Shown one piece after another: positions 14,113-23,148 of a stretch of DNA of 64,000 bases. The position numbers were made by a program, and so were the translations under genes. The first letter of the stretch is position 1, and the number at the start of each line of letters is the position of its first letter. The stretch is from Polyangium spumosum (GTDB lineage Bacteria; Myxococcota_A; Polyangia; Polyangiales; Polyangiaceae), in NCBI RefSeq assembly GCF_009649845.1, contig NZ_WJIE01000002.1, positions 682,001 to 746,000 on the forward strand, in the 5' to 3' direction. The notes beneath the pieces are model-generated. The model ran no database searches and was not told where the DNA came from. It saw nothing but the letters and a program-made list of their open reading frames with translations.

Positions 14113-15573
14113 ATGCCGAGCCTGCTCCTCATCATTTTTCCGCCCCTGCTCGGCGCGGCCCTCGTCATTCTGATCCCACAACGTAACGTGAGGCTGATTC
14201 GAGGCGTGGCGCTCGCCCATGCGGCGCTCGCATTCGTCGCGTCCTTTTGCCTCGTTCCGTTCTTCGACCGGACGACCTCCGCGCTGCAATTCGTCACGCC
14301 CTTTCCGTGGTCGCCGGACGCAGATGGCGCCGCCGCGCTGGGCGTCGACGGGATCTCCTTCCCGATGGTGCTCCTCACGACGCTCGTGATGCTCGTCGCG
14401 CTCGTCGCCTCGCTGCACGTGCGCCACCGCGTGAAGGCCTATTTCGCCTGGCTCCTCCTCCTCGAATTCGCCGTCCTGGGCGTCTTCACCTGCCTCTCCT
14501 GGTCGCTCTTTTACGTCTTCTGGGAGCTCACCCTCGTCCCGCTGTTTTTCCTGGTCAGCGTCTGGGGCGGGAAGGAGCGCTCGGCCGCGAGCATGAGCTT
14601 CTTCCTGTACACGCTCGCCGGCTCCGTCTTCATGCTGGTCGCCATGCTCGCGCTGCACCTCGCGCTGCCCGGGCATGGTTACGGGATGGTCGAAATGGCG
14701 AGCGCGAGCGCGGGGCTCGGCCGGGCCACGCAGGTCCTCCTCTTCCTCGGCCTCTTCGCGGGCCTCGCGGTGAAGATCCCGGTCTTCCCCTTGCACGGGT
14801 GGCTCCCGCTCGCCTACGTCGAATCGAAGCCCGCCGTCAGCATGGTCTTTTCGGCCGTGCTCGCGAAGATGGGCGCCTATGGCCTCCTGCGGCTCTCGGC
14901 CCTCCTGCCCGCCGGCGCGGCGTCGCTCGCGCCGCTCCTGTTCTTGCTCGGCCTCGTCAATATCGTGTACGGCGCGCTCCTCGCGTTCCGGCAGTCCGAT
15001 CTCAAGACCATGGTGGCCTATGGCTCGATGAGCCACATGGGCTTCGTCTTGATCGGCGTCGCGTCGCTCAACGGGGCCGGCCTCACGGGCGCCACGATGC
15101 AGATGTGCACGCACGGCATTTCGAGCGCCGCGCTTTTCCTCCTCGTCGGCGCGCTCGAGCGCCGCGCCGGGACCCGTGACGTGCGCCATTTTGGTGGCCT
15201 CGCGGCCGTCACGCCGCGCCTCTTCGTGGCGCTGTCCGTGGCGCTCCTCGGATCGATGGGTTTGCCCGGGCTCGCCGGCTTCGTCAGCGAGCTCTCCACG
15301 CTCGTCGGCACGTTTCAGCGGTACGAATACCTCGCCGGTATCGCGACCCTCGGCGTCCTCGTCACGGCGGGGTATTCGCTGAGGGCCCTCGGCCGCCTCT
15401 TCTTCGGGCCCTTGAATCCTCGGTGGAAAGATCTAAAGGATCTCGAGCCGCGGGAGCTCCTCGCCGCTGCGCCGCTCGGATTGCTCATCGTGGCGCTCGG
15501 CATGGCCCCGCGCGCGGCCCTCGACCTCGTCGCCGCCACGGTCTCGCACATGGCGACGCTCTTCCACGGATAG
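14113..15573 (+). CDS. NuoM-like proton-translocating antiporter subunit (first copy)
   Basis: 486 residues with about 14 membrane spans, full NuoM type. Key residues of the Mrp/NuoL-M-N fold are all present: G-V-D-G-I-S, the TM5 Glu in F-W-E-L-T-L-V-P, the TM7 Lys in A-V-K-I-P-V-F-P-L-H-G-W-L-P, the TM8 Lys in L-A-K-M-G-A-Y-G, D-L-K-T-M-V-A-Y-G-S-M-S-H and an acidic residue in G-L-P-G-L-A-G-F-V-S-E. It should move protons (or Na) through the membrane. No other complex I genes are nearby. It lies 4 bp upstream of dabA and opens the operon, so it is read as a membrane partner of the DAB-type carbon pump. The start at ATG 14113 fits the usual N-terminus. Confidence 0.85.
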   Translation: MPSLLLIIFPPLLGAALVILIPQRNVRLIRGVALAHAALAFVASFCLVPFFDRTTSALQFVTPFPWSPDADGAAALGVDGISFPMVLLTTLVMLVALVASLHVRHRVKAYFAWLLLLEFAVLGVFTCLSWSLFYVFWELTLVPLFFLVSVWGGKERSAASMSFFLYTLAGSVFMLVAMLALHLALPGHGYGMVEMASASAGLGRATQVLLFLGLFAGLAVKIPVFPLHGWLPLAYVESKPAVSMVFSAVLAKMGAYGLLRLSALLPAGAASLAPLLFLLGLVNIVYGALLAFRQSDLKTMVAYGSMSHMGFVLIGVASLNGAGLTGATMQMCTHGISSAALFLLVGALERRAGTRDVRHFGGLAAVTPRLFVALSVALLGSMGLPGLAGFVSELSTLVGTFQRYEYLAGIATLGVLVTAGYSLRALGRLFFGPLNPRWKDLKDLEPRELLAAAPLGLLIVALGMAPRAALDLVAATVSHMATLFHG

Positions 15574-15577
15574 TCGT

Positions 15578-18500
15578 ATGCGCGCCATTCTGAACGCGGC
15601 CACCCCTTCCGTCTCCGCCGAATCGAGAAAACACCTCGAGCACGAGATCGAGCACATCGCCCACGTCCTGCCCGGACAGGGCCCGATCGACACGTTCATC
15701 CACCACAACACGCTGCACGGCTTCCAGCACCTCCCTTTCGAGGAGGCCGTCCTTTCCGCGCGGCGCGTGCTCGGCGGGCGCGGGTATCTCTCGCTCGATG
15801 AATATCGACGGCTCTTCGTGATCGGCCGGATCACCGAGGAAGACCTCCTGCGCGCCCGTCGCGAGCGAAGAGGAGACGAGAGGGACGAGGTCCTCGCGCG
15901 GATCGGCGCGCGGGTGATCACCACGTGGGACATCGAGCGGATCGTCTTGCTCCACGACCTCGACCCGCGAGGGCCCCTCCCGACCGAGGAGCCCGTGGGC
16001 GACAGGCTCGAGGCGCTCTTCGAACGCGTCGAGCACCTGGAAGCCTCGGGCGGCCCTGCCCCTCCGCTCGACGCGCGGGAGCCTCGCCGGCAGATGATGC
16101 AGCACGCGGCGCGCAGGCTCTCCGAGCACCTCGGCGACCTCGGCCCCGAGACGTGCCACCGCGATGTCCTGCTCGCGCTCACGGGCGAGGACATCCACGA
16201 GAGGATCCACCCCCAGATCCTCCGCGTGACGATGGCCTTCCTCGACGAGGGCCTCGCGGCGTGGCACCTCGCCGGTCGCTCGCTCGGCTTTTACGACGCT
16301 TTCCGCGAGATGGCCGAGCACGACCGTTTCTTCGAGCTCGAGGGCCTCCCCGGCGCCCGCGACGCATTGCGGGCGCTGCCGCCGCTCGCCGTCGACGCGA
16401 TCCTCCAGAGCCTCGGGCGCCTCGGCGTGCCGGAGGCGCACTGGGGGACGTACCTCCGGCGCATCTGCGTGGGTCTGCCCGGCCTCGCGGGTATGGTGCG
16501 CTGGCGCGAGACGCACCCCGAATACCCCGCGCAGAAGGCGCACCCGATCGACCTCCTCCAGTTCCTCGCGGTGCGTTTGTTCCACGAGGTGCTCTTCGTG
16601 CGGCGCGCCTCCCTCCGCGCCTTCGGGCACGACGGCGACATCGAGAGCCTCCGCCGTCATTTCAAGCATCACCTGCCGGAGCTGCTCGTCCGGCATGCGC
16701 TCTTCCGCGGCGAGCTGCCCGATTGCCTCGCCGAGCGCGCCCGCGCCTTGCTCGAGGCCCGCTCCCCGGGTGACGCCGCCGGCGACGACGGGGCCATGCT
16801 CCGCCTCGCCCACATGGTCTTCGAATGGAAGACCGAGGAGATCGTGAGCGGCGTACACGCCACGCGGAGGGACGCGATTCGGCTCGGCGCGCTCGCGCAG
16901 CACCTCGGCGTCTCGCCGGGCGAGCTCCACGCGGCCTCGACCGAGGACACCTCACGATTGCTTTCGGTGCTCGACGCTCTCACGCCCGACGCGCTCTCGC
17001 CGCTCTGGCAACGCGCCTACGAGATTCATTACCGCGACGCCGTCCTCCACGCGCTCGCCGAGAACGTCCGGGCGCGAGAGCCTTTTGCGGGCCGCCGCGA
17101 CGCAGCGCTCGTCTTTTGCATGGACGACCGCGAGGAGGCCATCCGCCGGCACGTCGAGCAGCTCCGGCCCTCGTACGAGACCTTCGGCGCCGCGGGCTTC
17201 TTCGGCGTGGCGATCACCTACGAGGCGCTCGGCGCGCGGGAGCCCGTGCCGCTTTGCCCGATCGCCGCCACGCCCACCCACGAGCTCGCCGAGGTGCCGC
17301 GTGAAGCGGCCCGCGCTGCGTGGGCCTCGCGCTCCTCGCGCGCGCGCCCCCTCGTGGCCCTCCGCGACGCCGCCCGCGAGGCCACACGAAACCCCGTCTC
17401 GTCCTACTTCGCCATCGACCTCCTCGGTCTTTTCTCCCTCCTCCCCGTCGTGGGCAGGCTGCTTTTTCCGCGCGCCTACGAGCGCATGGCGCGCCACGCG
17501 AAACACGCCGTGCTGCCCGCCGTCGAGACGGAGGTGCCGCTCGATCACGAGCGCGAAACCAAAGGTCCTGGACGAAAGAGCCATTTCACCGTGACCGAGC
17601 GGGCGGACCGCGTGGCGGCTCTCCTCCGGAGTATCGGCCTCGTCCGCGATTTCGCGCCGCTCGTCGTGCTCATCGGCCACGGCTCCGAGAGCCGCAACAA
17701 CCCCCACCTCTCCGCCTACGACTGCGGCGCCTGCGGGGGCAAACACGGCGGGCCAAACGCGCGTGTCTTCGCGCGTATGGCGAACGACCCCGACGTGCGC
17801 GCCCTCCTCGCCGAGCGGGGCTTCCCCATCCCAAACAATACGTGGTTCCTCGGCGCCGAGCATAACACCGCGACGGACGCCTTCACCTATTTCGACCTCG
17901 TCGACGTCCCCCGCGCATTCCGCCCCGCGCTCGACGAGCTCCGCGGCGTGCTCCAGCACGCGAGCGAGCGCTCCGCGCAAGAGCGATGCCGCAAGTTCGA
18001 ATCGGCCCCGAAAAACCCCACGCCCGCGCGCGCGCTCCGGCACGTGGTCGGACGCGCCTCGGACCTCTCGCAGGCGCGGCCCGAGCTCGGCCACGCGACG
18101 AACGCGCTCGTCATCTTTGGCCCTCGCTCGATCTCGCAAGGCGTCTTCCTCGACCGACGAGCCCTTTTGGTCTCGTACGATCCTGGCATCGACCCCGACG
18201 GCACGATCCTCGAGGGCCTCTTGCTCGCCGCGGGCCCCGTCGCCGCCGGCATCAACCTCGAATACTACTTCTCCACCGTCGACAACCCGATTTACGGCTG
18301 CGGGACGAAGGTCCCCCACAACGTCGCGGGGCTCATCGGCGTGATGGAGGGCGCCTCGGGGGATCTGCGCACGGGTTTGCCGCGACAGATGATCGAGATC
18401 CACGAACCCATGCGCCTCTTGATGCTCGTCGCGGCGCGGACGCAGATCCTCACGAAGATTTACGAGCGGCAACCCCCCCTCCGCGAGCTCGTCGGCCATG

Positions 18501-18634
18501 CGTGGGTCCACCTCGTCGTGATGGATCCCGAGACGGGCGCGTGTTCCTCGTTCCAGCCCGACCGGGGCTTCGTCCCCTGGGAGCCGCGGGCCGCGACGCA
18601 AACGAGCAGGCAGGTATCGGCGGCCCATGCTTGA
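15578..18634 (+). CDS. dabA: DabA-type inorganic carbon transporter subunit (DUF2309)
   Basis: 1018 residues, soluble, DUF2309 family. The N-terminus shows the family block P-I-D-T-F-I-H-H-N-T-L-H-G-F. The four residues known to form the beta-carbonic-anhydrase-like Zn site in Halothiobacillus DabA are all present: Cys514 and Asp516 in V-F-C-M-D-D-R, His701 in I-G-H-G-S-E-S, and Cys716 in Y-D-C-G-A-C-G-G. The His-to-Cys spacing is 15, as in that protein. It is thus expected to hydrate CO2 to bicarbonate vectorially, driven by ion flow through its membrane partner. At 1018 residues it is longer than the roughly 830 of Halothiobacillus. It overlaps the next gene by 8 bp. The host is probably heterotrophic, so the bicarbonate may serve anaplerotic carboxylases. 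Confidence 0.9.
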   Translation: MRAILNAATPSVSAESRKHLEHEIEHIAHVLPGQGPIDTFIHHNTLHGFQHLPFEEAVLSARRVLGGRGYLSLDEYRRLFVIGRITEEDLLRARRERRGDERDEVLARIGARVITTWDIERIVLLHDLDPRGPLPTEEPVGDRLEALFERVEHLEASGGPAPPLDAREPRRQMMQHAARRLSEHLGDLGPETCHRDVLLALTGEDIHERIHPQILRVTMAFLDEGLAAWHLAGRSLGFYDAFREMAEHDRFFELEGLPGARDALRALPPLAVDAILQSLGRLGVPEAHWGTYLRRICVGLPGLAGMVRWRETHPEYPAQKAHPIDLLQFLAVRLFHEVLFVRRASLRAFGHDGDIESLRRHFKHHLPELLVRHALFRGELPDCLAERARALLEARSPGDAAGDDGAMLRLAHMVFEWKTEEIVSGVHATRRDAIRLGALAQHLGVSPGELHAASTEDTSRLLSVLDALTPDALSPLWQRAYEIHYRDAVLHALAENVRAREPFAGRRDAALVFCMDDREEAIRRHVEQLRPSYETFGAAGFFGVAITYEALGAREPVPLCPIAATPTHELAEVPREAARAAWASRSSRARPLVALRDAAREATRNPVSSYFAIDLLGLFSLLPVVGRLLFPRAYERMARHAKHAVLPAVETEVPLDHERETKGPGRKSHFTVTERADRVAALLRSIGLVRDFAPLVVLIGHGSESRNNPHLSAYDCGACGGKHGGPNARVFARMANDPDVRALLAERGFPIPNNTWFLGAEHNTATDAFTYFDLVDVPRAFRPALDELRGVLQHASERSAQERCRKFESAPKNPTPARALRHVVGRASDLSQARPELGHATNALVIFGPRSISQGVFLDRRALLVSYDPGIDPDGTILEGLLLAAGPVAAGINLEYYFSTVDNPIYGCGTKVPHNVAGLIGVMEGASGDLRTGLPRQMIEIHEPMRLLMLVAARTQILTKIYERQPPLRELVGHAWVHLVVMDPETGACSSFQPDRGFVPWEPRAATQTSRQVSAAHA

Positions 18635-20087
18635 TCGCCTCACCCTCCTCGTCCCGCTCCTCCCGCTCGTCGCCGCGCTCGTCATTGGCAGCTTTTCCCT
18701 GAGCGCGCGCCCGCTCGGGGAGCGCGCCACGAGCCGGCTCGCCCTCGGCGCGGCCCTGCTCTCCTCCCTCGGCGCCGCGGCCCTCCTCGGGCGGGCCCTC
18801 TTCGACGGCGCACCCAAAACTGTCTTCGTCGCGCCCTGGATCGAGAGCGGCGCTTATCGCGCTCCCCTCGAGCTCCTGCTCGATCCGCTCTCCGCGTCGC
18901 TCGCGCTCCTCGTCGCCGGCTTCGGCGCGCTCGTCCTGCGATTCTCGACGAATTACATGCACCGCGAGGCCGGCTTCGGCCGCTTCTTCCTGGTGATGTG
19001 TTTCTTCCTCGCCGCCATGCTCCTGCTCGTGCTCGGCGGCAACCTCGTGATGACCTTCGTGGGCTGGGAGGGCGCGGGGCTCGCGTCGTACCTGCTCATC
19101 GGATACCACCACGAGCGCAAGGCGCCCGCCCGCTCCGCGACCTATACATTCGTGACGAACCGTATCGGCGACGCGGCCTTCCTCGGCGCGATCTTCGTGG
19201 CCTGGCACGAGCTCGGCACGATCACGTACACGTCGCTCTTCCAGGCCGCGGAGACCGCGGATCGAGGAGCCCTGACCACCCTCGGCCTCTGCTTGCTCGT
19301 CGCGGCGGCCGCGAAATCGGCGCAGCTCCCATTCTCGCCCTGGATCTCCCGCGCCATGGAGGGCCCGACGCCTTCGAGCGCGCTCTTTTATGGCGCGGTC
19401 ATGGTCACCGCCGGCCTCTTCCTCGTGCTGCGCGTCGGCCCCGTGCTCGACCACGCGCCCGACGTCTTGCACGTGATGGCGGCCATGGGCGCGGCGACGG
19501 CGCTTTATGGCGGGCTCGTGAGCCTCGTGCAGACGGACGCAAAGAGCGGGCTCATCTTCTCCACCGTCAGCCAGCTCGGCCTCATGTTCCTCGCGGTCGG
19601 GCTCGGGGCCCGCGGCATTGCGCTTTTTCACCTCTTCACGCACGCGCTCCTCCGCGGCGCGCAGTTCCTCACCGCGCCGAGCACCCTGCGGCTCGTCCCG
19701 CGCGACGAGCCCTCCCGTGACATGGAGCTCGTCGCGGGAAGGCTCGGACGTGGCCTCCACGCCGCGGCGCTCGCTCGATTCTGGCTCGAGCCCCTCTACG
19801 AAAAGTGCCTCGTCGCGCCCCTCCTGCGCCTCGGCCGCGCGCTCGACCACGTGGACACCTTCGACCGCGGCCGCGGCGTCCCGGGGCGCGCCGTTCAATA
19901 CGCCGCCTCGCTCGCGCACCTCATCGAAACACACCTCGTCCGGCGCGCCATGGGCCGCGGGATCCCCGTCACGGGTGACCGGCTCGGGCGCACCCTCCAC
20001 CACGTCGAGGCCGTCCTCGAGCGGCCCGTCGTCGTGGGCGCGCTCGTCCTCCTCTCCCTCTTCGTCGTCGTCCGCTGGGCGGTTTGA
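18627..20087 (+). CDS. dabB: DabB-type NuoL-like membrane subunit
   Basis: 486 residues, related to NuoL but shorter, with the C-terminal lateral-helix part missing, as in DabB proteins. Present are L-L-L-D-P-L-S, the TM5 Glu in F-V-G-W-E-G-A-G-L-A-S-Y-L-L-I-G, the TM7 Lys in A-A-A-K-S-A-Q-L-P-F-S-P-W, E-G-P-T-P-S-S-A-L and S-T-V-S-Q-L-G-L-M-F. The usual His of S-A-L-I-H is Tyr (S-A-L-F-Y), and the Lys of the T-H-A-x-x-K element is Arg (T-H-A-L-L-R). The ATG lies inside the dabA end (8-bp overlap), a sign of coupled translation. Known function of the family: binds DabA and couples ion entry to bicarbonate formation. Confidence 0.85.
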   Translation: MLDRLTLLVPLLPLVAALVIGSFSLSARPLGERATSRLALGAALLSSLGAAALLGRALFDGAPKTVFVAPWIESGAYRAPLELLLDPLSASLALLVAGFGALVLRFSTNYMHREAGFGRFFLVMCFFLAAMLLLVLGGNLVMTFVGWEGAGLASYLLIGYHHERKAPARSATYTFVTNRIGDAAFLGAIFVAWHELGTITYTSLFQAAETADRGALTTLGLCLLVAAAAKSAQLPFSPWISRAMEGPTPSSALFYGAVMVTAGLFLVLRVGPVLDHAPDVLHVMAAMGAATALYGGLVSLVQTDAKSGLIFSTVSQLGLMFLAVGLGARGIALFHLFTHALLRGAQFLTAPSTLRLVPRDEPSRDMELVAGRLGRGLHAAALARFWLEPLYEKCLVAPLLRLGRALDHVDTFDRGRGVPGRAVQYAASLAHLIETHLVRRAMGRGIPVTGDRLGRTLHHVEAVLERPVVVGALVLLSLFVVVRWAV

Positions 20088-20089
20088 CC

Positions 20090-21622
20090 ATGCATGTATT
20101 CCCTCTCCTGAGCGCGCTCGTCGTCCTGCCCCTCCTCGCCGCGGCGTCCGTCCGTTCCCTGAAAAAACCACGCCACGTTTATTCGATCGGCCTCGGCTTC
20201 GCCGCGCTCGAGCTCCTCCTCTCCGCGCTCGTCGTCGCGCGCTTCGAGCGGCACACGCCCGCGCTCCAGCTCGTCGAGCGTATCCCCCTCTTCGGCGATC
20301 ACGCCTATCACGTCGGCGTCGACGGCATCAGCGTCCTCTTTTTGCCCCTGACGGCGCTGCTCGCGCTCCTCGTCATCCTGCACGCCGAGCTCGCCGCGAA
20401 GCAGCGGCCGGGCCATTACCTCGCCGCCATCTTCAGCCTGCAGGCCTCCCTCATGGGCGCGTTCGTCGCGCTGGATCTCCTGCTCTTCTGGGCCTTCGCC
20501 GCGCTCGAGCTCGTCCCTGGCACCCTGCTCGTGCGGAGCTGGGGCACGGGGCCGGGGAGGCGCGCGGCGGCGCGGCGGTATGCGGCGCTCAACACCATGG
20601 GCGCCCTGCTCGTCCTCGCCGGCGCGATCGTCCTCGGCCGCGCCACGGGCGGCCAGTTCTCCCTCGAGGCGCTCACGAATACGCCCGCCCCCGCGCGCGC
20701 GCAGTTCCTCGCCTTCTGGCTCTTCGTCCTCGGCTTCGCCGTCCGCATTCCTCTCTTTCCTTTCCACGGCTGGTTGCCGCCCGTGATGGCCGAGGGCCCG
20801 GCCGTCGGCGTGAGCGTCTTCCTCGTCGGCGCCAAGCTCGGCGTGTATGGCCTCCTGCGCTTCGTGATCCCGCTCCTCCCGCTCGCCGCGCACCGATATG
20901 GCCCCCTCCTGGCCGCCCTCGGCGTCGTCGGCATGATCTACGGCGCGCTCCTCGCGCTCGTGCAGACCAACCTCCGGCGCCTCGTCGCGTTCGCCTGCCT
21001 CGCGCATACGGGCAGCGTGCTCGTCGGCATCTCGACGCTCAACGCGGAGGGGCTCTCGGGGGCGCTGCTCGTCACGCTCAACGTCGGCCTGAGCGCGGCC
21101 GGCCTCTATTTCGTCGCGGGCTTCTTGCACCGCCGCCTCGGCTCCACCGACGTCGCGCGTGGCGCGCGGCTCTCGCGACACGCGCCCCTGCTCTCGTTCA
21201 CGTTCCTGCTCGTGGGCCTCTCGACGATCGGAATGCCGGGGACGAGCGGATTCGAGGCCGAGCACCTCGTCGTCGTGGGCGCGCTCGAGGCGCACCACGG
21301 CATCCTGGCCCTCGCGGTTGGCCTCGGCAGCTTGCTCGGCGCGGCTTATCTCCTCCGATATTTCCAGCGCGCATTCCTCGCCTCCGCCGCCGCGCCCGCC
21401 CCTCCCGCGACGGAGGCCCCCGCCTCGCGCAGGGCCGTCCATGACCTCGGCCCGCGCGAGCTCATCATTGCCGGCGCGACCGCTGCGATCATCGTGGGCC
21501 TCGGGCTCTTCTCCCACCCCTTGCTCGAGGTCGTGGACGGCTCGGTGCGCGCCATGTCCACGCGCCTCGACCACGCCAGACCCAAAACGCCCCTCGTGAT
21601 GCACGGGGAGGGCGCGCCGTGA
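20090..21622 (+). CDS. NuoM-like subunit with altered channel residues (second copy)
   Basis: 510 residues, about 14 spans. The NuoM frame is clear (G-V-D-G-I-S-V-L-F-L-P, F-P-F-H-G-W-L-P, G-A-K-L-G-V-Y-G-L-L-R, G-M-P-G-T-S-G-F-E-A-E). Two channel positions differ from active antiporter subunits. The TM5 region reads F-W-A-F-A-A-L-E-L-V-P, so the usual W-E glutamate is not in place and an acidic residue lies three positions later. The TM7 Lys is Arg (A-V-R-I-P-L-F-P). The TM8 Lys and TM12 Glu are kept. It may be a structural or modified-ion subunit. ATG at 20090 is two bases after the dabB stop; an upstream TTG at 20084 would overlap it. Confidence 0.82.
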   Translation: MHVFPLLSALVVLPLLAAASVRSLKKPRHVYSIGLGFAALELLLSALVVARFERHTPALQLVERIPLFGDHAYHVGVDGISVLFLPLTALLALLVILHAELAAKQRPGHYLAAIFSLQASLMGAFVALDLLLFWAFAALELVPGTLLVRSWGTGPGRRAAARRYAALNTMGALLVLAGAIVLGRATGGQFSLEALTNTPAPARAQFLAFWLFVLGFAVRIPLFPFHGWLPPVMAEGPAVGVSVFLVGAKLGVYGLLRFVIPLLPLAAHRYGPLLAALGVVGMIYGALLALVQTNLRRLVAFACLAHTGSVLVGISTLNAEGLSGALLVTLNVGLSAAGLYFVAGFLHRRLGSTDVARGARLSRHAPLLSFTFLLVGLSTIGMPGTSGFEAEHLVVVGALEAHHGILALAVGLGSLLGAAYLLRYFQRAFLASAAAPAPPATEAPASRRAVHDLGPRELIIAGATAAIIVGLGLFSHPLLEVVDGSVRAMSTRLDHARPKTPLVMHGEGAP

Positions 21623-23148
21623 TGCACATTCGAGAAATCCTCGCCGCAGATCAAGTCGGCTTCCCCGTCCTCTCGACGCTGATCTTCCTCCCGCTCGCCG
21701 GAGCGCTCCTGGTCCTCGCCATCGGCGACGACAGACGCGCCCGGCGGGCGGCCCTCGCCATTTCCCTGATCGAGCTCCTCCTCTCGCTCTTCGTGCTCGC
21801 GCGGTTCGTGACCGGCACGCCCGACGTGCAATTCGCCGAGAGGCGCCCGTGGATCCCCACGCTCGGCGCGAGTTATCACCTCGGGGTCGACGGCATGAGC
21901 GTGCTCTTTTTGCCCGTCGCGGCCTTGCTCTCCGTGCTCGTGCTCGTCGCCTCGTGGCGCGAGGTGAAGGCCCGCGCCCGCGGCCATAACGCGGCCCTGC
22001 TCGCGCTCTCCGCGATGGTCATGGGCATCTTCTCGTCCCTCGACCTCGTCCTCTTTTTCGTGTTCTGGGAGGCGTCGCTCATCCCCATGTATTTCCTGGT
22101 CAGCCTCTTCGGCGTGGGGCCCGAGCGCAGGTATGCGGCGATGAAATTCGTCCTGACCATGCTCACCGCCTCCGGGCCGCTCCTGCTCGGCATCGTGCTG
22201 CTCGCCGTCGCGGGCCGCGAGAGCCCGGCCGATCCGTACACCTTCGACTGGCTCGTCCTGCGCGAGCGGCCGGTCCCGCCGTCGATCGGGCCCGTCGTGT
22301 TCTTCACGATGCTGATCGGCTTCGCCGTCAAGGGCCCCTTCGTCCCCTTGCACACCTGGATGCCCACGATGTTACGCGAATGCCCCGTGGGCATCGGCGT
22401 CCTGCTCACGGGCCTCAAGCTCGGCTGTTATGGCGTGCTCCGCTTCCTCGTCCCGCTCCTGCCCGAGGCCACGGCGCGCCACGCGTGGCTGCTCGGCGCC
22501 CTGGGCGTCACCGCTATCGTCTACGGCGCGCTCGTCGCGCTCGTCCAGCCAAACCTCCGGCGTCTTCTCTCGTTCTCGTGCCTGAGCCACGTGGGCTTCG
22601 TGCTGCTCGGCATCTCGTCGGGCTCGACCGAGGGCCTCTCGGGCGCGGTGCTCGTGATGCTGAACCTGGGCTTGTCCGCGACGGGCCTCTTTTTCCTGAC
22701 CGGTTTCCTGCAAAATCGCGTCGGCTCGTCGGAGGTCTCGGCGCTCGGCGGCGTCGCGCAGAAGGCGCCACGCGCGGCGGTGATGTTTTTGCTCCTCGGC
22801 CTCGCCGGCATTGGCCTGCCGGGCACGAGTGGCTTCCCCGGTGAGCACCTCGTCCTGCTCTCGGCCTACGAAACGAGCCTCCCGAGCCTCGTCCTCGCGC
22901 TTTTTGGCACGATCCTCGGCGCGGCCTACGTCCTGCGTGTCTTCGAGCGTGTCTTCCTCGGCCCCGTCACGCGCCCACGTGTCGCCGCGATGAAGGACCT
23001 CCGGCCCCTCGAGTGGGGCGTCGTCGGTTGCCTCGCCATTCTCGTGCTCGTGGTTGGCCTCCATCCGAGGCCCCTGCTCGAGATCGTCGGGCCGAGCGCC
23101 GAGGCCCTCGCGCGGCCGTCCGGGCCGGCCGTCGTCGCGCGCCCCTGA
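21619..23148 (+). CDS. NuoM-like antiporter subunit (third copy)
   Basis: 509 residues, about 14 spans, full NuoM type. All channel residues are kept: G-V-D-G-M-S-V-L-F-L-P, TM5 F-V-F-W-E-A-S-L-I-P-M-Y, TM7 A-V-K-G-P-F-V-P-L-H-T-W-M-P, TM8 T-G-L-K-L-G-C-Y-G and TM12 G-L-P-G-T-S-G-F-P-G-E. The GTG start overlaps the previous stop by 4 bp, and the following ATG at 21622 is equally possible; GGGGAGGG lies just upstream. Sequence blocks such as S-G-A-V-L-V-M-L-N-L-G-L-S-A and G-T-S-G-F are shared with the second copy more than with the first, so the second and third probably arose by local duplication. Confidence 0.85.
   Translation: MMHIREILAADQVGFPVLSTLIFLPLAGALLVLAIGDDRRARRAALAISLIELLLSLFVLARFVTGTPDVQFAERRPWIPTLGASYHLGVDGMSVLFLPVAALLSVLVLVASWREVKARARGHNAALLALSAMVMGIFSSLDLVLFFVFWEASLIPMYFLVSLFGVGPERRYAAMKFVLTMLTASGPLLLGIVLLAVAGRESPADPYTFDWLVLRERPVPPSIGPVVFFTMLIGFAVKGPFVPLHTWMPTMLRECPVGIGVLLTGLKLGCYGVLRFLVPLLPEATARHAWLLGALGVTAIVYGALVALVQPNLRRLLSFSCLSHVGFVLLGISSGSTEGLSGAVLVMLNLGLSATGLFFLTGFLQNRVGSSEVSALGGVAQKAPRAAVMFLLLGLAGIGLPGTSGFPGEHLVLLSAYETSLPSLVLALFGTILGAAYVLRVFERVFLGPVTRPRVAAMKDLRPLEWGVVGCLAILVLVVGLHPRPLLEIVGPSAEALARPSGPAVVARP

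Follow-up and report, generated by a model that had tools for sequence, protein, structure and literature searches.

The products of the five adjacent genes described here are likely to form a single membrane complex belonging to the DAC/DAB family of one-way carbonic anhydrases powered by the proton-motive force, in which a complex-I-like arm would take the place of the single DabB of the two-subunit pump. The cluster is probably a larger and little-described variant of the known bicarbonate pump. We present below the genes and their recurrence in other bacteria, the residues that distinguish their products from those of the related systems, and the alternative explanations against which a single complex has to be weighed.

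The five-gene cluster and its distribution

All five open reading frames lie on the forward strand of the window (the whole stretch of 64,000 nucleotides of Polyangium spumosum DNA that was analysed) in the order M1-DabA-DabB-M2-M3, and both their place and their order are as the initial annotation had given them. The NuoM-like M1 (14113..15573; PF00361; TIGR01972, 474.6 bits) is followed by DabA (15578..18634), a protein of the long type with 1018 amino acids matching PF10070 with 821.5 bits (E=1e-246), by the NuoL-like DabB (18627..20087; PF00662 and PF00361), by M2 (20090..21622; PF00361), which is a degenerate NuoM-like protein with a TTG at 20084 as possible alternative start, and by the NuoM-like M3 (21619..23148; PF00361; TIGR01972, 465.9 bits). 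The junctions measure +4 bp between M1 and DabA, -8 bp between DabA and DabB, +2 (or -4) bp between DabB and M2 and -4 bp between M2 and M3, reproducing the annotated gaps and overlaps; the single operon that had been claimed is supported. Pfam places PF10070 in the second gene, PF00361 in the other four and PF00662 in DabB only. In NCBIfam the best rank for M1, M2 and M3 is NuoM (TIGR01972), above the subfamily cut-off, and DabB matches NuoL, the match being restricted to residues 5-358. The DAB-like identity first proposed holds as well, with a PF10070 subunit adjoining a PF00361 NuoL-like subunit and the zinc-site residues kept.

The cluster shares with the complex I arm and with Mrp antiporters the NuoL- and NuoM-type subunits with their channel residues but differs from both in its partners, as none of NuoA-K (NuoA, H, J, K and N included), NuoH or the Mrp partner genes was found within the five-gene cluster, in agreement with the earlier exclusion of an ordinary complex I or Mrp operon. 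More specifically, neither NuoH nor the catalytic NuoD was found beside the antiporter subunits of the cluster, and among the five genes there was no MbhD/MbhE-type C-terminus and no MrpB, C, E, F or G. A Pfam search of the five genes gave only DabA as a CO2-hydration subunit, with no CupA-type subunit.

We took approximately 150 DabA loci and typed the genes around each according to which of the five window proteins they matched best; 80 nearest relatives were picked by similarity and the sample is no census. The order M1-A-B-M2-M3 was exact and complete in 63 of these loci, a figure that slightly overcounts genomes because a few Polyangium loci entered twice from two collections, and the loci interrupted by contig ends agree with it. 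Since it recurs in 63 loci the gene order is far beyond chance. The hosts are distant from one another and include Polyangium and another family of Myxococcota, Methylococcaceae and Thiodiazotropha among the Gammaproteobacteria, Nitrosomonas and Magnetococcales. The same approximately 150 loci yielded a three-gene A-B-M form in 31 cases, all of them in Myxococcota, and in 23 a form of two genes, B-A, whose DabA is short. A plasmid search with DabB as query returned only distant NuoL-type proteins (<60% identity). Other arrangements were also observed: a Thiothrix MAG has DabA-DabB doubled inside the cluster, giving M1-A-B-A-B-M2-M3 (L103:8439-23030), in Euzebyales (Actinomycetota) a sixth gene of the cluster encodes another PF00361 protein (L108:3-11627), and two Myxococcota loci (L116 and L120) carry a differently arranged M-NuoL-M cluster a few kb from DabA.

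A related neighbourhood was reported by Klimchuk et al. in 2017 (PMC5700660), at a time when the function of the DabA family was still unknown, as COGNAT 'clade C', where ybcC lies upstream of a nuoL homologue with additional COG1008 (NuoM) and COG0659 (SulP) genes; the authors proposed that the number of subunits sets the number of ions moved. This clade is very likely the same group as the five-gene systems, but the main text of that paper describes the neighbourhood only and not the number or order of the M genes, the residue changes, the fusions or the independence from complex I. The open-licence literature searched gave no account of the five-gene order beyond PMC5700660 and no experiment on such a system, and NuoM-containing systems are not treated in the excerpts of the 2026 DAB2 structure paper (PMC13144422) from which we cite here.

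Conserved residues in the hydrating and antiporter-like subunits

Comparison with DAB2 of Halothiobacillus neapolitanus (DabA2-DabB2; PDB 9rd0/9rd8/9rd9) shows a shared DabA family with all the zinc-site residues, a shared NuoL-fold DabB and a shared hydrophobic finger segment in DabA, but DAB2 has two subunits of which a single one is antiporter-like, whereas four PF00361 genes are present here. The window DabA aligns to DabA2 of 9rd0 with E=5.3e-74, and its C514, D516, R518, H701 and C716 correspond to C351, D353, R355, H524 and C539. The C514-x-D516-x-R518 motif (17117..17131, forward strand), comprising the first zinc ligand and the Asp-Arg dyad, is invariant also in A2, and zinc ligands and dyad, both of which matter in DAB2 (PMC13144422), are invariant in all 117 aligned DabA proteins of every type. 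Two positions with known roles in DAB2 set multi-subunit DabA apart from two-gene DabA. At H839 (18092..18094, forward strand), in the place of DabA2 Leu658, all multi-subunit DabA have His (63/63 five-gene and 31/31 three-gene) and all two-gene DabA have Leu (23/23); in DAB2 this Leu occupies the place of the transition-state Gln of beta-carbonic anhydrases and has been tied to low basal activity (PMC13144422). The finger acid Glu444, essential in DAB2 (PMC13144422), is not conserved here, the best acidic column being acidic in 25/63 five-gene, 1/31 three-gene and 22/23 two-gene DabA, and the proton route must therefore differ from that of DAB2. When the DabA model was compared with solved structures there was no match at E<=0.001, no solved beta-carbonic anhydrase fold was matched and 9rd0 was absent among the matches listed, so that the DabA fold is assigned from sequence homology alone. 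The window DabA is also without two N-terminal inserts of other Polyangium (1018 versus 1311 amino acids).

The TM5 glutamate of DabB (E148, 19068..19070, forward strand), equivalent in the alignment to NuoL E144 at the subunit interface, is invariant in A1 and present in 63/63 five-gene and 31/31 three-gene DabB but in none of the 23 two-gene DabB. The TM5 ion pair lies near the subunit interface, and H. neapolitanus has an Ile there (Ile151) (PMC13144422). Multi-subunit DabB form one clade against two-gene DabB (support 100/96), and the glutamate contrast is thus mainly a single evolutionary split, essentially clade against clade, rather than a series of many independent events. By hydropathy the window DabB has TM1-11, the lateral-helix region and one C-terminal segment and is without TM12-14, whereas most two-gene DabB have four C-terminal hydrophobic segments; its AlphaFold2 model (mean pLDDT 84.5) has E. 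coli NuoL as best fold match. TM12-14 are also absent in nearly all five-gene DabB and are retained in other Polyangium. Compared with a DabB of 721 amino acids from one such species (L031:13929-16091), the window protein (486 amino acids) is without approximately 166 amino acids, containing TM12-14, and a further 46, both of which other Polyangium DabB keep.

In the maximum-likelihood tree M1 and M2 each form one clade at 100% support and M3 nearly so, and these separate clades indicate that the M genes are old, distinct paralogues rather than recent copies. The M proteins of three-gene loci are the sister group of M2 (support 99/96), and M1 branches closest to the NuoM of complex I (90/80, not starred). 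The channel roles of the NuoM positions compared here have been established in work on complex I. M1 has the complete set (Glu in TM5, Lys in TM7, Lys in TM8, His, and Glu in TM12), kept in 61-62 of 63 homologues, and the set of M3 is likewise complete and kept in 62-63 of 63. In M2 the TM5 Glu is gone from essentially all homologues and the TM7 Lys is replaced by Arg in 63/63; the single M of three-gene loci has likewise lost this Glu and carries the TM7 Arg in 31/31. The four antiporter-like channels envisaged in the initial annotation are not borne out as four equal channels, given that full residue sets occur in M1 and M3 only and that DabB, besides being without TM12-14, has Tyr in place of the TM8 His.

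A probable single complex and its alternatives

That all five proteins belong to one physical complex, as the initial annotation had suggested, is very likely to judge from the fusions of DabB with M, the M remnants and the co-variation of the TM5 glutamate. In a genus of Myxococcota DabB and a full M lie in one reading frame (L171:4781-8272, reverse strand, and L174:88-3900, reverse strand), and at three loci with no separate adjacent M a remnant of M sits at the DabB C-terminus (L061:3313-5220, reverse strand; L076:5703-7667; L182:7913-12403), matching the TM12-13 region of M with 45-50 bits. Adjacent antiporter-like subunits of complex I meet with TM12 of the one against TM5 of the other, so that the piece of M retained on DabB is the part that should contact it. 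A strict rule tying the TM5 glutamate to the presence of a separate M gene had to be discarded, there being four DabA-DabB loci without one; three of the four carry the fused remnant, and the fourth (L184:6427-10865, reverse strand) is a divergent DabA-DabB pair with the TM5 glutamate and no M found nearby, in a genome that also carries a three-gene system.

The proposed complex would work as follows. DabA would bind zinc and hydrate CO2 to bicarbonate in the cytoplasm, as its conserved residues suggest, and by homology to DAB2 it would sit on the NuoL-like DabB with its hydrophobic finger inserted beside it. DabB may stack through its TM5 face on the NuoM-like subunits, of which M1 and M3 have the appearance of working proton channels and M2 that of a non-pumping or altered end subunit. 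Because M2 alone has lost the TM5 Glu we would place it at the far end, which gives a putative arm order of DabA-DabB-(M1, M3, in either order)-M2. Proton flow through this arm would drive CO2 hydration, and the bicarbonate would feed carboxylases.

A DAB-type pump of DabA and DabB that is merely co-transcribed with a separate NuoM-type ion transporter, the two forming no single complex, is in our view an unlikely reading. A shared operon alone proves no contact and known pumps work with the DabA-DabB pair alone (PMC13144422), but the DabB-M fusions and the M remnants on DabB speak against such a separation, as do the retention of the TM5 glutamate only in lineages with M and the M2-type orthologue common to three- and five-gene systems. 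Three-gene Myxococcota loci share with the window this M2-sister M, the DabB glutamate and the DabA His, and differ in having no M1 or M3. We regard it as improbable that the complex is a symporter of sodium and bicarbonate, the activity claimed for MpsAB, in which sodium would pass through the M subunits. In favour of this reading, sodium can be transported by the antiporter-type subunits of Mrp systems. Sodium use has also been argued for MpsAB (PMC13144422), yet DAB2 needs no sodium (PMC13144422) and the CO2-hydration zinc-site residues are all retained here.

Far less probable is an alternative distal arm docked on the complex I core, like NdhD3/NdhF3/CupA of NDH-1MS, with redox-driven hydration. 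The logic of NuoL, NuoM and a CO2-hydrating subunit is the same, NDH-1MS and NDH-1MS' having such a subunit on NuoL/NuoM-type subunits, and a NuoH homologue occurs in most hosts (29/34 genomes); here, however, the subunit is DabA and not CupA, there is no redox input and the complex I core is not needed. INDEPENDENCE from complex I is seen in the complete genome of Methylomonas sp. LW13, which has the cluster and in which no NuoH and no NuoD were found, so that the cluster is not part of complex I, and docking on the complex I of the cell was rejected on this genome; besides the four PF00361 proteins of the cluster this genome encodes only one more. M. methanica NCIMB 11130 is likewise a host in which neither NuoH nor NuoD was found. 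The genome of the window has NuoH elsewhere, outside the cluster, and separate antiporter clusters including a NuoL/M/N-like trio on another contig; it also contains an open frame of 1333 residues with two PF00361 stretches (L187:6791-10792, reverse strand). Equally hard to credit is the reverse direction proposed in 2017 (PMC5700660), in which an exergonic DabA reaction would expel ions, more subunits moving more of them. That proposal predates the knowledge that DabA acts on CO2, DAB2 is powered by the proton-motive force (PMC13144422), and by our own calculation one proton at ~150 mV costs ~14.5 kJ/mol, which exceeds the yield of CO2 hydration near neutral pH.

Energetics, carbon context and significance

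For a complex driven by the proton-motive force, our calculation gives ~14.5 kJ/mol from one proton at ~150 mV, equivalent to a several-hundred-fold displacement of CO2/bicarbonate, and four protons would allow a displacement of approximately ten orders of magnitude, so that a four-proton ratio is sensible only at low force. The energetics and the residue loss in M2 together argue for fewer than four working channels. It is possible, though we hold it only tentatively and think it rather doubtful, that the system is a five-subunit vectorial carbonic anhydrase with at least two proton channels per CO2-hydrating site, a higher proton-to-bicarbonate ratio than DAB2, as the initial annotation had proposed, and His in the place of the beta-carbonic anhydrase Gln. 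If true, the higher ratio would be useful at low proton-motive force.

RuBisCO was not found in the genome of the window, which encodes two beta-carbonic anhydrases, and of 35 host genomes just 13 were found to have it, so that the pump is not restricted to autotrophs; in the RuBisCO-less Polyangium the use of bicarbonate would be biosynthetic rather than autotrophic. Bicarbonate-related neighbours favour the proposed pump: a SulP gene adjoins 25/63 five-gene loci, 21/31 three-gene loci and 0/23 two-gene loci, and in Methylomonas and a Pseudomonadales MAG a beta-carbonic anhydrase gene lies beside SulP, flanking the cluster. Members of the SulP family also carry sulfate. At L031:6705-8432 (reverse strand) and similar Polyangium loci a divergent SulP gene lies just upstream of M1; it is absent there in the window species.

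If the proposed complex is real, channel arms of the complex I type would be coupled to a non-redox CO2 hydration without the complex I core. Systems of two, three and five genes form a natural series that could then serve as a clean test of what added antiporter-like subunits do to coupling, a question still debated for complex I as well. In such a scenario, an active supply of inorganic carbon would be suggested in heterotrophs and methanotrophs that have no RuBisCO.
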